From positions 1 through 29,395 of IMG/VR virus record IMGVR_UViG_3300021371_000077: a DNA stretch of 29,395 nt; one strand, written 5' to 3'. Below are positions 2,858 to 29,395 of the stretch, one piece after another. Numbering within the stretch: position 1 is the first letter of the stretch; each line of letters opens with the position of its first letter. The position numbers and the translations under genes were made by a program. The notes under the pieces were generated by a model. It was not told where the DNA came from, ran no database searches, and saw nothing but the letters and a program-made list of their open reading frames with translations. Source of the DNA: a virus.

Positions 2858-3263
2858 GCTTACAATTGCTAAGCTTGTTGATAAAACAGCGACTGATTTG
2901 CAAAAGCTTGTTAGGCTGAAAGCAGCTGATGCTGTGGGCTTTTGTCAGTGTGTATCTTGCGGAAGTCGAAATCATTTTACGAAGATGGATGGTGGGCACT
3001 TCTTTAGCAGAACGCACTTGAGGTTTAAGTTGTTTATTGAAAATATCCACCCACAATGCAAGCGCTGCAATATGTTGATGGGCGACGCAAAGGTTCACGA
3101 GGGGTATAGGAAATACATGATTGATATGTACGGAGAGCGAAGAATTCAAGCAATGCATCGATTGCTAAACTGGAAAAAGCCCAAGTTTAAGCGTGTTGCT
3201 GTACTTGAGTTTCGAAAAGATATTAAACGACAAATTAAAGAGCTGGAGAATAGATATGAGTAA
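2847..3263 (+). CDS. ninG: NinG (Rap-like) recombination endonuclease
   Basis: 138 residues, shorter than lambda NinG (about 200). It has the family's zinc-binding pair Cys35-x2-Cys38 and Cys71-x2-Cys74. Between them is the HNH-like core: GGHFFSR (residues 49-55), then LRF and ENIHPQCKRCN (65-75). A helical basic C-terminus follows. Lambda NinG/Rap cleaves branched recombination intermediates such as D-loops and Holliday junctions. The ATG at 2847 is chosen because GAGG lies at 2837-2840; the earlier ATG at 2832 has no ribosome site. Finding it right after O/P-like genes supports a lambdoid nin-type region, although few other nin genes are present. Confidence 0.85.
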   Translation: MKTKLTIAKLVDKTATDLQKLVRLKAADAVGFCQCVSCGSRNHFTKMDGGHFFSRTHLRFKLFIENIHPQCKRCNMLMGDAKVHEGYRKYMIDMYGERRIQAMHRLLNWKKPKFKRVAVLEFRKDIKRQIKELENRYE

Positions 3264-3426
3264 AATATTAAAAGTTGATTTTAGCAAGAAAGCATCTAGG
3301 CAATGGGATGAATCAGGATGCTTAGCGGATATTTATCGAAACGCTAATGAGCGGGTAACGGCAGAAAACAATGTTTTGAAACAGGTACTAAAGGAAATAG
3401 TAGAGGAAATAAATAATTATATTTAA
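3256..3426 (+). CDS. Small early protein, unknown (56 aa)
   Basis: It begins inside the last codons of ninG (overlap of eight bases) with TGGAG about eight bases upstream. The frame opens at 3193, but that start would be buried in ninG without a ribosome site. The 56 residues begin basic (SKKASRQW) and end in an amphipathic acidic helix. No family is recognised. It is the last gene of the tightly overlapped early operon. Confidence 0.55.
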   Translation: MSKILKVDFSKKASRQWDESGCLADIYRNANERVTAENNVLKQVLKEIVEEINNYI

Positions 3427-26801: not shown

Positions 26802-27163
26802 GTGACGACCAAATAAGGATACTGCTAGAAGAGCGATACGACGCAATAAAAAATCATCTCGAAACAATTGGAGCAGATGTCAAAGAGTTGTCAGTGGTTA
26901 CTAACTCACATACTACAGCAATAAAGATTCTCGAAACAAATTATAATTCATATCAAAAAAGTATCGAAAGCATTGAAAACAAGCTGGACAAGGAATCTTT
27001 CTTTAGCAAGCACGGCCACAAGATTTTTGTCGTTGCAATTACTTTGATTGGGATGATTGTTACTTACACAACTTGGAAACATGACCAGACAATGCAAGAT
27101 AAAATTCAAAATGAACAGTTGCTGGAGTTAAAAGCGCTGATTACTGAGGGAAAATCAAAATAA
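26798..27163 (+). CDS. Coiled-coil protein with one membrane segment in the lysis cluster
   Basis: 121 residues; the ATG overlaps the holin-like gene stop (ATGA). Residues 5-65 are a charged, heptad-like coil. Residues 72-92 form a single transmembrane helix (HKIFVVAITLIGMIVTYTTW), then a charged tail. The topology, with the long coil before the anchor, resembles XhlA-type haemolysin or accessory holin proteins more than Rz, whose anchor is N-terminal. No Rz1-like lipoprotein motif was found. It is the last gene of the late operon, and its stop lies in the terminator hairpin's first arm. Confidence 0.55.
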   Translation: MSDDQIRILLEERYDAIKNHLETIGADVKELSVVTNSHTTAIKILETNYNSYQKSIESIENKLDKESFFSKHGHKIFVVAITLIGMIVTYTTWKHDQTMQDKIQNEQLLELKALITEGKSK

Positions 27164-27184
27164 CCCCTGACCGAAACCAGGGGT
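27163..27184. terminator. Terminator between the lysis operon and the leftward gene
   Basis: A hairpin with a 7-bp stem: ACCCCTG (27163-27169), eight-base loop, CAGGGGT (27178-27184). Its position at the meeting point of convergent operons is right for a shared terminator. On the minus strand it is followed by TTATTTTGATTTTC, a good T-rich tail, so it should stop the 27270-27896 gene well; on the plus strand the T run is missing, so termination there may be weaker or factor-dependent. Confidence 0.6.
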
Positions 27185-27269
27185 CGAACTTTCAACGTGC
27201 TCGCTTTCCCTGGCAAGCATGATTAGGATATCATTTTTTTGTGAGCTTAGAAACCTTATTCTTTCTGAG

Positions 27270-27896
27270 CTATTTTCGTTCAAGGTTTCTGACATCCCAT
27301 TCAAGGTTATCAATAGCCTTACTTCTCGTCTCGCCACTCGCAGTGCAATTAGGGTGTTCGCAAATTCTAGCCAAAAACCCACCGCCTTCTTCTTCTGATT
27401 TTTTACGAACAATTACGTTATATTTTTTTTTAGAACGTCTAAAAAACATAACTATTTTCTCTTCATCCTTTTTAAGCTCATCTGCTGACACATAACCAAG
27501 GGAGAAAAGCCATTCAAAAATTGACCAAAGCATTAAACCCAAAAGAAACAAAAATAACCCGCCGACAGCAATAGCGCCTAGAGCGCCAAGCGGGTACATT
27601 ATTGCTACCCATACAAAGCGGCCAAAGGAGGATAAATCCTTAATGTGGTCGCCATAAAACCCAAAGTGATAAAGAGCTGCTGAAATAGAGGAAGGCGAGA
27701 GCCATAAGAAAAGATATAGCGCAGCTAATTTCTTTCCGGTGCGGGAGCTATATACCATGCCGTGAGGCCAGTTAGATCTTTCGCTTTCTGCTCTATGACG
27801 CAGATTTTCTATATGCTGATTTTCAAACATATACGCTTTTTCAAATCTTTTCTTAAAATCAGGATCTTTCATTTCTTTGTCAAATGTACTCTTCAT
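27270..27896 (-). CDS. Two-pass membrane protein with HicB-like C-terminal domain
   Basis: 208 residues from the ATG at 27896, six bases after the upstream gene's stop; AGGGG lies upstream and the ATG at 27917 would start inside that gene. Residues 1-45 are charged and helical, with the run STFDKEMKDPDFKKRFEKAY, similar to the start of some antitoxins. Residues 55-78 and 92-130 are hydrophobic (two or three membrane segments). The C-terminal ~50 residues read YNVIVRKKSEEEGGGFLARI, then CEHPNCTASGETRSKAIDNL. This is the pattern of HicB antitoxins (YxVxxxxDxxGGYVAxxPDLPGCxxxGxTxxEA), a partial RNase H fold. No HicA-type gene is adjacent. The odd fusion and its place beside attP suggest a lysogeny-expressed gene. 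Confidence 0.6.
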   Translation of the reverse strand: MKSTFDKEMKDPDFKKRFEKAYMFENQHIENLRHRAESERSNWPHGMVYSSRTGKKLAALYLFLWLSPSSISAALYHFGFYGDHIKDLSSFGRFVWVAIMYPLGALGAIAVGGLFLFLLGLMLWSIFEWLFSLGYVSADELKKDEEKIVMFFRRSKKKYNVIVRKKSEEEGGGFLARICEHPNCTASGETRSKAIDNLEWDVRNLERK

Positions 27897-27900
27897 ATTC

Positions 27901-28110
27901 TCATTTCCCCTTACCATAACATGAAAGCTTAAACGGCAGCGTACAATAAAAATCTTTTATGCACCCCTTGCGCTTTAGCTTTCCATTTTCCTCGGCAGAA
28001 TCAAGAAACTTATAAAAGTAAAGCAAGCTGCCATCTTTCGATTTATAATTTATTTCTAATTGTTTCAAAATAGCACAAAGCATTTCTTCTAATTCGTCTG
28101 CATATGTCAT
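27901..28110 (-). CDS. Small protein upstream of the HicB-like membrane gene (69 aa)
   Basis: 69 residues, AGGAGG (28117-28122, minus strand) six bases before the ATG, and coupled to the next gene by a gap of four bases. The first 25 residues form an amphipathic acidic helix (ADELEEMLCAILKQLEI), followed by a beta-like and basic end with several Cys and Lys residues. It does not look like HicA (no His in a dsRBD-like fold is visible), and I recognise no family. It is probably transcribed with the membrane gene from the region next to attP. Confidence 0.5.
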   Translation of the reverse strand: MTYADELEEMLCAILKQLEINYKSKDGSLLYFYKFLDSAEENGKLKRKGCIKDFYCTLPFKLSCYGKGK

Positions 28111-28253: not shown

Positions 28254-28302
28254 AACCTTGCCAAGGTTGAGGTCGCGAGTTCGAATCTCGTTTCCCGCTC
28301 CA
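28254..28302 (+). other. attP: attP core: 3' part of a tRNA-Gly(GCC) gene
   Basis: The 49 bases correspond to a tRNA from the anticodon stem to CCA. Parts: half the anticodon stem (AACC), loop with TT-GCC-AA (GCC anticodon at 28260-28262), GGTT, variable loop GAGGTC, T-arm GCGAG-TTCGAAT-CTCGT, acceptor 3' strand TTCCCGC, T and CCA. The DNA upstream (28200-28253) does not resemble a D-arm or acceptor 5' strand, so it is not a working tRNA. Phage genes lie on both sides and an integrase begins 0.9 kb downstream. This matches a phage attP that restores the 3' end of a host tRNA-Gly gene on integration. Confidence 0.85.
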
Positions 28303-28337: not shown

Positions 28338-28550
28338 TCACATATCATTAATTTTGTCCCATATATAGAAAATAAAATAGCCCGTAAAAGATAAAAGCAA
28401 GTCTAAGAAAAATAGGCCACCAACGACGCAGAAAGAACGCTTCCACGACAAGTCAACGAGATAGACCATAGCTAAAACACCCAAGCCAAATTGCATAGCG
28501 CCTATGATTGCCAAACGCCAAGCGTACTCATCTTCATCTTCCCTTATCAT
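28338..28550 (-). CDS. Small membrane protein, paralogue A (70 aa)
   Basis: 70 residues. An acidic N-terminus (REDEDEY) precedes two membrane segments (about 12-32 and 40-62), ending IFYIWDKINDM. The middle DLSWKRSFCVVGG matches HLSSQRSFCIAVI of the gene upstream, and the C-terminal IFYIWDKIND is identical, with matching DNA (30 bases with one difference). The start overlaps the upstream gene's end by 17 bases. The family is unknown, but two related genes in a row and a third with the same junction suggest local duplication. As small, doubly spanning membrane proteins near attP, superinfection exclusion would be a plausible but unproven role. Confidence 0.55.
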   Translation of the reverse strand: MIREDEDEYAWRLAIIGAMQFGLGVLAMVYLVDLSWKRSFCVVGGLFFLDLLLSFTGYFIFYIWDKINDM

Positions 28551-28778
28551 TGATTTTGTCCCATATATAGAAAATTATATAAACAATAGCCAATAAAAAA
28601 TAAATAATAAGTAAGCATAAGAAAGATATGATGACAGCAATGCAGAAAGAACGCTGCGACGACAAGTGAACGAAGTTGCTCATTACTAAAGCCCCGAAGA
28701 AACACGCATTAAAAGCTAAAAGTGCATCTAACATGCTCATCTTTACTCCCCCCCCTTATCATTGATTTTGTCCCATAT
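28344..28778 (-). repeat. Three direct copies of a gene-junction repeat
   Basis: Copies at 28344-28373, 28546-28575 and 28753-28778. The first two match in 29 of 30 bases. The third matches the second exactly over 26 bases (28541-28566 against 28753-28778). Each copy sits at the end of a small membrane gene: it encodes the shared C-terminus in A and B, a frame-shifted end in the third, and the start codon of A. A further 32-base block (28428-28459 and 28642-28673, three differences) links A and B. This is direct evidence for tandem duplication. Confidence 0.8.
28534..28740 (-). CDS. Small membrane protein, paralogue B (68 aa)
   Basis: 68 residues; GGGG-rich ribosome site (minus strand, from 28755) five bases before the ATG. 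It has two hydrophobic segments (about 4-22 and 31-57: IAVIISFLCLLIIYFLLAIVYIIFYIW), with HLSSQRSFC between them and DKINDKGR at the end. It shares that layout and the ending with paralogue A downstream, and 32 bases around the RSFC codons match with three differences. The run of eight G (28748-28755, as C on the plus strand) makes up the ribosome site, so slippage there could change expression. Confidence 0.55.
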   Translation of the reverse strand: MSMLDALLAFNACFFGALVMSNFVHLSSQRSFCIAVIISFLCLLIIYFLLAIVYIIFYIWDKINDKGR

Positions 28779-28908
28779 TTTCTATTAAAAACCTCACAAA
28801 GTACCAAACGACGACCAATCCAACTGGAACCCAAGGCGCAAAAGCAGCGAAGAAAAGGGCAGGAATCATTGCATAACGTATTGTTAGCTCTATCTTTTCA
28901 ATGCTCAT
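28759..28908 (-). CDS. Small membrane protein (49 aa), first of the tandem cluster
   Basis: 49 residues from the ATG at 28908; it overlaps the end of the 106-aa gene by 11 bases. A short charged start is followed by a hydrophobic stretch of about 25 residues (IPALFFAAFAPWVPVGLVVVWYFV) and a MGQNQ end. Its last codons lie in the same 26-base repeat that ends paralogue B, but read in another frame, so here the repeat encodes a different C-terminus and stop. It is either an independent gene that shares the junction or a degraded third copy. Confidence 0.45.
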   Translation of the reverse strand: MSIEKIELTIRYAMIPALFFAAFAPWVPVGLVVVWYFVRFLIENMGQNQ

Positions 28909-29218
28909 CGCCACCATCCACTATGCTCTTAATAATATTCATAAGCTCCTCAACATTTTCCATAGCTATCTCACATTCATCATAAGTATATGACAGCACC
29001 CACCAATAGGCTTTTTTTTGCCAATCTAAATTATTGGAAACATCCAATGAAACAATACAATATTTATCGCCCTTACAAACCATAAACTTAATAAATTTGC
29101 CAGTATGTGGCGGAAGTATGCGAACACACCATGATGAATCAAAATTTAACTCCGGTATTTTCATGGCCAAGTTTGCCAACTCAAGCGCTTTATCACGTGC
29201 TATTTTCTCAAAATTCAT
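28898..29218 (-). CDS. Protein of 106 aa in the integrase operon, unknown
   Basis: 106 residues; AAGGAG lies before the ATG, which overlaps the integrase stop (ATGA), so the two genes are coupled. An N-terminal helix (FEKIARDKALELANLAMKI) is followed by a beta-rich middle (SWCVRILP, KFIKFMVCKGDKYCIVSLDVS, KKAYWWVLSYT) and an acidic helical end. No HTH is obvious, so it is not a clear excisionase. The alpha-beta build is like small immunity or regulatory proteins, but no family is recognised. Confidence 0.6.
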   Translation of the reverse strand: MNFEKIARDKALELANLAMKIPELNFDSSWCVRILPPHTGKFIKFMVCKGDKYCIVSLDVSNNLDWQKKAYWWVLSYTYDECEIAMENVEELMNIIKSIVDGGDEH

Positions 29219-29395
29219 CTTGTTGGCTCCTTTTTATGCTCGTCTCTAAAATACACTTTGCGGACCATTTTTTCTGAGCTATGACCAGCTTTTTCAGCTG
29301 CAACGCCATAGCCGTCTGTGTTAACAATATACGTTATTGCGTATGCTCGTATGTCATACAATGTAAATGATTCTGCCAAAAGGCCGGAATCGATG
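29215..29395 (-). CDS. int: Tyrosine integrase, C-terminal end (partial)
   Basis: Only the last 59 codons are inside the window; the N-terminus lies beyond 29395. They contain the end of a phage tyrosine recombinase: FTLYDIRAYAITYI (Arg16 of the visible part, in the position of the second catalytic Arg), KAGHSSEKMV (His38), and VYFRDE with the nucleophile Tyr48. The family's usual His in HxLR is Tyr here (Tyr13), a known variation in some integrases. It would recombine attP (28254-28302) with the host tRNA-Gly gene. It is the first visible gene of the leftward operon and overlaps the next gene by four bases (ATGA). In-frame reading has no internal stop. Confidence 0.85.
   Translation of the reverse strand, partial: IDSGLLAESFTLYDIRAYAITYIVNTDGYGVAAEKAGHSSEKMVRKVYFRDEHKKEPTR

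Follow-up and report, generated by a model that had tools for sequence, protein, structure and literature searches.

A leftward gene pair beside a putative phage attachment site encodes a membrane protein with HigA-like and HicB-like ends, a possible antitoxin mimic

The antitoxin HicB is known as a soluble protein. To our knowledge, none of the phage antitoxin mimics known so far is membrane-bound, and each copies a single antitoxin. Phages carry antitoxins or antitoxin mimics (PMC11594946, PMC11481870), and in the case of the DarTG antitoxin mimic the phage gene resembles, or is derived from, an antitoxin while the toxin is absent (PMC11481870). The large HicBs of HicA classes 7 and 8 are long proteins without a DNA-binding domain, and in class 8 the HicB fold is C-terminal, after an unrelated N-terminal part (PMC10865869). 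Their genes belong to hicBA operons, and the publication, which nowhere uses the word 'membrane', does not describe them as membrane proteins (PMC10865869). A membrane-spanning member of a type II toxin–antitoxin (TA)-like arrangement is found in ToxM-ToxR, presented in a 2025 survey as the first possible membrane-associated type II complex; there it is the toxin, of BECR fold, that lies in the membrane (PMC11980606). The 2024-2025 work on HicA contexts and RelE/ParE toxins describes no membrane HicB (PMC10865869, PMC11980606).

The gene pair considered here (27270-28110) belongs to a virus record of 29.4 kb, analysed over its whole length of 29,395 nucleotides (the window). The terminase, portal, head and Hc3 connector proteins are related to those of podovirus-like phages, the relatives of the terminase being 37-50% identical at most. 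Late genes run rightward and end with genes for an SLT-like lysin, a TM protein and an Rz/hemolysin-like protein; a hairpin terminator separates them from the pair, which runs leftward (Table 1). The orientation opposite to the lysis genes and the closeness to attP, both pointed out in the initial annotation, are confirmed by this map. We take a 48-nt stretch of tRNA-Gly(GCC) as the attP core because it is matched, with 1-2 mismatches, in 33 of 398 Pseudomonadota genomes, and because ARAGORN found no whole tRNA in the window; the matches are widespread across Pseudomonadota. After integration, the pair would lie just inside the prophage end opposite int, at the far edge on the attR side, a position that, judging from the map, would be typical for lysogenic accessory genes.

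Table 1. Features of the leftward gene pair and its surroundings
Feature	Position	Strand	Basis or remark
Terminator-like intrinsic hairpin	27162..27185	(-)	closes the leftward pair
Membrane protein ORF, 215 aa from ATG 27917	27270..27917	(-)	likely start ATG 27896 (208 aa)
HicB-like partial RNase H domain, aa 162-215 (beta-beta-beta-alpha1)	27273..27434	(-)	sequence searches, profile, structure model
Second, long hydrophobic segment, aa ~101-142	27492..27617	(-)	hydropathy up to 2.45; AF2 helix 95-140
First hydrophobic segment, aa ~62-88	27654..27734	(-)	hydropathy; helical in the AF2 single-sequence model
HigA-type antitoxin N-terminal motif, aa 8-29 (MKSTFDKEMKDPDFKKRFEKAY)	27831..27896	(-)	matches HTH antitoxin N-termini beside Gp49/HigB toxins
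Coupled 69-aa protein, family unassigned	27901..28110	(-)	in-frame codon bias
Putative attP core, corresponding over 48 nt to the 3' half of a tRNA-Gly(GCC) gene (from the anticodon loop to CCA)	28255..28302	(+)	
Integrase C-terminus	right end of record		sequence inspection by eye, not profile

The record breaks inside the integrase gene on the right (29215-29395) and starts on the left (1-365) just before a Cro-like gene, so that the repressor and most of the integrase are absent. The stretches 28338-28740 and 28753-28778 take in two tandem paralogous small membrane proteins of 70 and 68 aa, ~50% identical over 50 aa (73-75% at the DNA level), and a third copy of their 26-nt end repeat, which falls in the next gene (52 aa) in another reading frame. 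A leftward 106-aa protein, encoded at 28898-29218 between int and these small membrane proteins, has no family match and no relatives in IMG/VR.

Coding capacity was assessed with a codon-usage model trained on the large genes of the phage, the 215-aa ORF being scored in three parts (aa 8-60, 61-150 and 151-215). Each part is coding when taken separately, and so is the 69-aa frame. The 215-aa ORF is a single continuous coding frame; as the codon bias is continuous, a separate fused or frameshifted gene for the HicB part was rejected as unneeded. A good ribosome-binding site (GAGGAGGAATGAAATG) precedes the 69-aa gene, and ATG 27896 of the membrane gene, with AAGGGG upstream of it, lies 4 nt beyond the TGA (27901-27903) of the 69-aa gene. 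We chose this ATG as the likely start, in place of ATG 27917, because the HigA-like homology begins there. An internal start at M158 (MFFRRSKKKY...), with a weak ribosome-binding site only, is possible.

A HicB-like pattern had been reported for the C-terminus of the membrane protein in the initial annotation. Pfam, NCBIfam and PADLOC gave no match for this region, and Pfam returned no HicB family even at E 10; the family libraries alone would have led to the answer 'no HicB', which was overturned by genome-scale single-sequence searches. The whole protein, searched against 369 + 398 genomes at E <= 0.01-0.02 per genome, gave 44 matches (best E 4.8e-6), 37 of which fell on aa 140-209. The proteins matched there are stand-alone HicB-like ORFs of the form YPxxIRPLSxEEGGGYLxxFPDLPGCxADGETxEEA, and representatives score above the Pfam PF15919 HicB cut-off where checked. 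Several adjoin recognisable HicA genes, and the plasmid matches are annotated 'HicB family antitoxin'. A profile of 12 HicBs, partly circular as these were picked via the focal protein, with the HicB identity of three representatives checked independently, scored 43.9 bits on the focal C-terminus against 6.2 for the best of 5000 shuffles. Among the window ORFs only the focal one scored with this profile, which also matches solved HicB chains, and hhalign gave 96.6% over aa 162-207. Weak hints of DUF5673 (E 0.35) and DJ-1 (E 1.6) were dismissed as chance.

An AlphaFold model of aa 143-215, built with 21 HicB rows (pLDDT 82, order beta-beta-beta-beta-alpha), can be superposed on HicB structures (1.1-1.7 Å over 48-50 residues, Z 4-6), and Foldseek probabilities against HicB reach 0.98 at E-values > 0.3; Z values of this order are modest and are nearly equalled by unrelated dsRBD chains, and the alignment steered the model, which consequently speaks for consistency and is not proof. 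The profile and shuffle test are independent of it. By the sequence comparisons, the final ~54 residues form a true partial RNase H domain of the HicB type, as first proposed; the lack of a HicB-like profile match, named in the initial annotation as grounds for refutation, did not materialise. Like HicB_lk_antitox (PF15919) and the solved HicBs (6g1c, 6hpb, 4p78, 6u0i), the domain has the partial RNase H core, beta-beta-beta-alpha1, with the P, C, G-x-T and A-I-x-N helix pattern of HicB. Unlike them, it is C-terminal and membrane-tethered, has neither the DNA-binding domain nor hicA beside it, carries HPN in place of LPG (LPGC to HPNC) and scores below the curated Pfam cut-off. The complete HicB fold is absent from this divergent domain, since the ORF ends after helix alpha-1, without beta-4/alpha-2. 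Helix alpha-1 itself is kept (aa 198-212; model helix 56-70), the helix of HicB reported to pack on or bind HicA (PMC10865869). In the model, the place of the missing beta-4 may be taken by an additional strand that precedes the domain (aa 152-159). Length and the missing DNA-binding part recall the HicBs of classes 7 and 8, and the C-terminal placement that of class 8.

The opposite end of the protein also resembles an antitoxin. Residues 8-29 are 50-62% identical to the start of HTH proteins of 100-117 aa (loci L209, L210, L212 and L213), which are HigA-type antitoxins of Gp49 (PF05973)/HigB modules opening with STF[DE]xEMxDPxF. A toxin gene lies immediately upstream of the HTH antitoxin in L209, L210 and L212, where the neighbour was read; the toxin of L210 is Gp49 by Pfam. 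The motif with an adjoining toxin is also present in a phage (L219), and on a Treponema plasmid it stands beside a RelE/ParE toxin, the match being weak (E 6). A HigA-motif profile, somewhat circular as it was built from the focal protein's own matches, scored 35.0 bits on the focal N-terminus, whereas the best of 5000 shuffles reached 15.5. The resemblance of the first part to antitoxin N-termini, already suspected in the initial annotation, is real, and the motif is that of the Gp49-linked HigA subfamily. Unlike the HigA-type antitoxins, the membrane protein has no HTH match, hydrophobic segments standing in its place, and no toxin gene upstream. The same motif opens a 144-aa non-HTH protein (KSTFEREMENPAFKAEFEKEY) encoded at 2959-3393 of a 366-kb jumbo phage contig (L220), and is thus detachable.

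Between the two ends lie the hydrophobic segments. The two-pass topology proposed earlier is plausible for the protein as a whole; the second stretch, 42 residues in length, may form a single long helix or a pair of helices. In the case of two passes, the K/R residues before the first segment and RRSKKK after the second suggest that both tails are cytoplasmic. The single-sequence AlphaFold model of the full-length protein is poor (pTM 0.34) and gave no fold match with E <= 0.001. Weak matches of the hydrophobic part to transporters and an NADH dehydrogenase-like protein (L136, L203, L205) were judged compositional.

We found no relatives of the whole membrane protein in IMG/VR, GTDB contigs, INPHARED, PLSDB or the genome samples, in searches that reach close relatives, or samples only, so that absence is not proof. 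The pair was likewise sought in other prophages, with none found. The fetched loci contain ~85 other HicB-domain ORFs; none has a membrane segment before the domain, and their 19-residue mean hydropathy is <= 1.4, against 2.45 here. The view that a membrane-tethered partial RNase H fold would be a new arrangement is supported, no relative of the same architecture having come up in the collections above, and we found no earlier description of a membrane-anchored antitoxin mimic in the open-access literature. A viral contig (L178, 852-1900) apparently has two adjacent HicA/HicB-like pairs, with two HicA-like and two HicB-like ORFs.

No cognate toxin is recognisable in the record. With local profiles, and in a record incomplete at its int end, none of the 450 window ORFs matched HicA, in agreement with the initial annotation, and no HigB (Gp49) match was found in the window; of the BECR-fold (RelE/HigB-like) families, Gp49/HigB-like profiles found nothing within the membrane protein ORF either. 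The small partner, whose stop/start coupling to the membrane gene is evident, retains its description as a protein of unassigned family: this small, basic 69-aa protein has no family in the libraries searched, no HicA or HigB profile match and no relatives in direct searches. It contains no histidine and cannot carry the catalytic His of HicA.

Our tentative preference is to regard the second gene of the pair as encoding a lysogeny-expressed, membrane-anchored antitoxin mimic. The pair would be an accessory ('moron') pair expressed in lysogeny from the attR-side end of a podovirus-like prophage, and the product of the second gene would sit in the inner membrane, its two ends in the cytoplasm. 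The N-tail copies the start of HigA-type antitoxins, and the C-tail is a partial RNase H core of HicB type in which alpha-1 is kept. Such a mimic could bind and sequester the toxins of higBA/hicAB modules encoded by the host or by rivals, so that the lysogen would not be killed and the growth of this phage would not be aborted; the role of accessory partner would fall to the 69-aa protein, which is coupled to it and translated immediately ahead of it. This reading draws on the retention of the HicA-contacting helix alongside loss of the DNA-binding part, and on the operon layout and attP position. The fuller proposal, in which HigA-like and HicB-like tails on the cytoplasmic face act as a tethered double mimic and capture toxins of two TA families, is rather doubtful. 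Like the DarTG mimic, the candidate would be an antitoxin-like phage gene whose toxin is absent; unlike known mimics it would be membrane-bound and copy two antitoxins. As in ToxM-ToxR, a TA-like arrangement would have a membrane-spanning member, here with antitoxin-like domains instead of the toxin. Several points speak against mimicry: the HicB domain is divergent, below the Pfam threshold and truncated; the HigA-like motif comprises ~22 residues only, its toxin-binding role being inferred; a membrane location of such a protein has no explanation; and there is no homologue to reveal selection.

The sensor or exclusion/defence role put forward in the initial annotation found no direct support, and two antitoxin-derived ends suit a mimic at least as well. 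A two-gene exclusion or abortive-infection system, which we hold to be rather unlikely, would make the membrane protein the effector, acting as a pore or a block to DNA entry, with the antitoxin-like tails keeping it inactive or binding the 69-aa partner until infection by a related phage releases it. The pair's place at the edge of the prophage, its orientation against that of the late genes, its own terminator and the tight two-gene coupling would suit such a system; ToxM, a type II TA toxin that includes a membrane domain, was proposed to respond to DNA entry (PMC11980606), and phage TA toxins that depolarise membranes exist (PMC10440598). However, the membrane part is unlike any exclusion/Abi family in PADLOC-DB, annotated PHROGs and Pfam, and other prophages have yielded no relatives. 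It is unlikely that the HicB core and the HigA-like helix are interaction modules recruited by an unrelated membrane protein (e.g. for regulation or phage assembly), or parts of a decaying recent chimera. The partial loss of HicB motif residues, the truncated domain, the want of homologues of the whole and the motif on the non-HTH jumbo-phage protein would fit this, but codon usage is intact along the entire frame and two independent antitoxin-derived ends are improbable by accident. More unlikely again is that the two genes form a type II TA-like pair, with a new toxin in the 69-aa protein and a tethered antitoxin in the membrane protein. The order of the genes, with the small protein ahead of the larger one that has the antitoxin domains, the stop/start coupling and the small, basic nature of the first product agree with this, but that product lacks toxin family, profile match and relatives, and HicB partners HicA, whose catalytic site needs the missing histidine. 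A mimic fits better than an addiction pair, because the ends come from two TA families and the record contains no recognisable toxin of either.

If the antitoxin mimic proposed here is real, its membrane-anchored HicB domain, combined with a HigA-like N-terminus and unaccompanied by a toxin, would bring type II antitoxins to the membrane, and would suggest how several toxin-based defences could be disarmed by one protein of a temperate phage.
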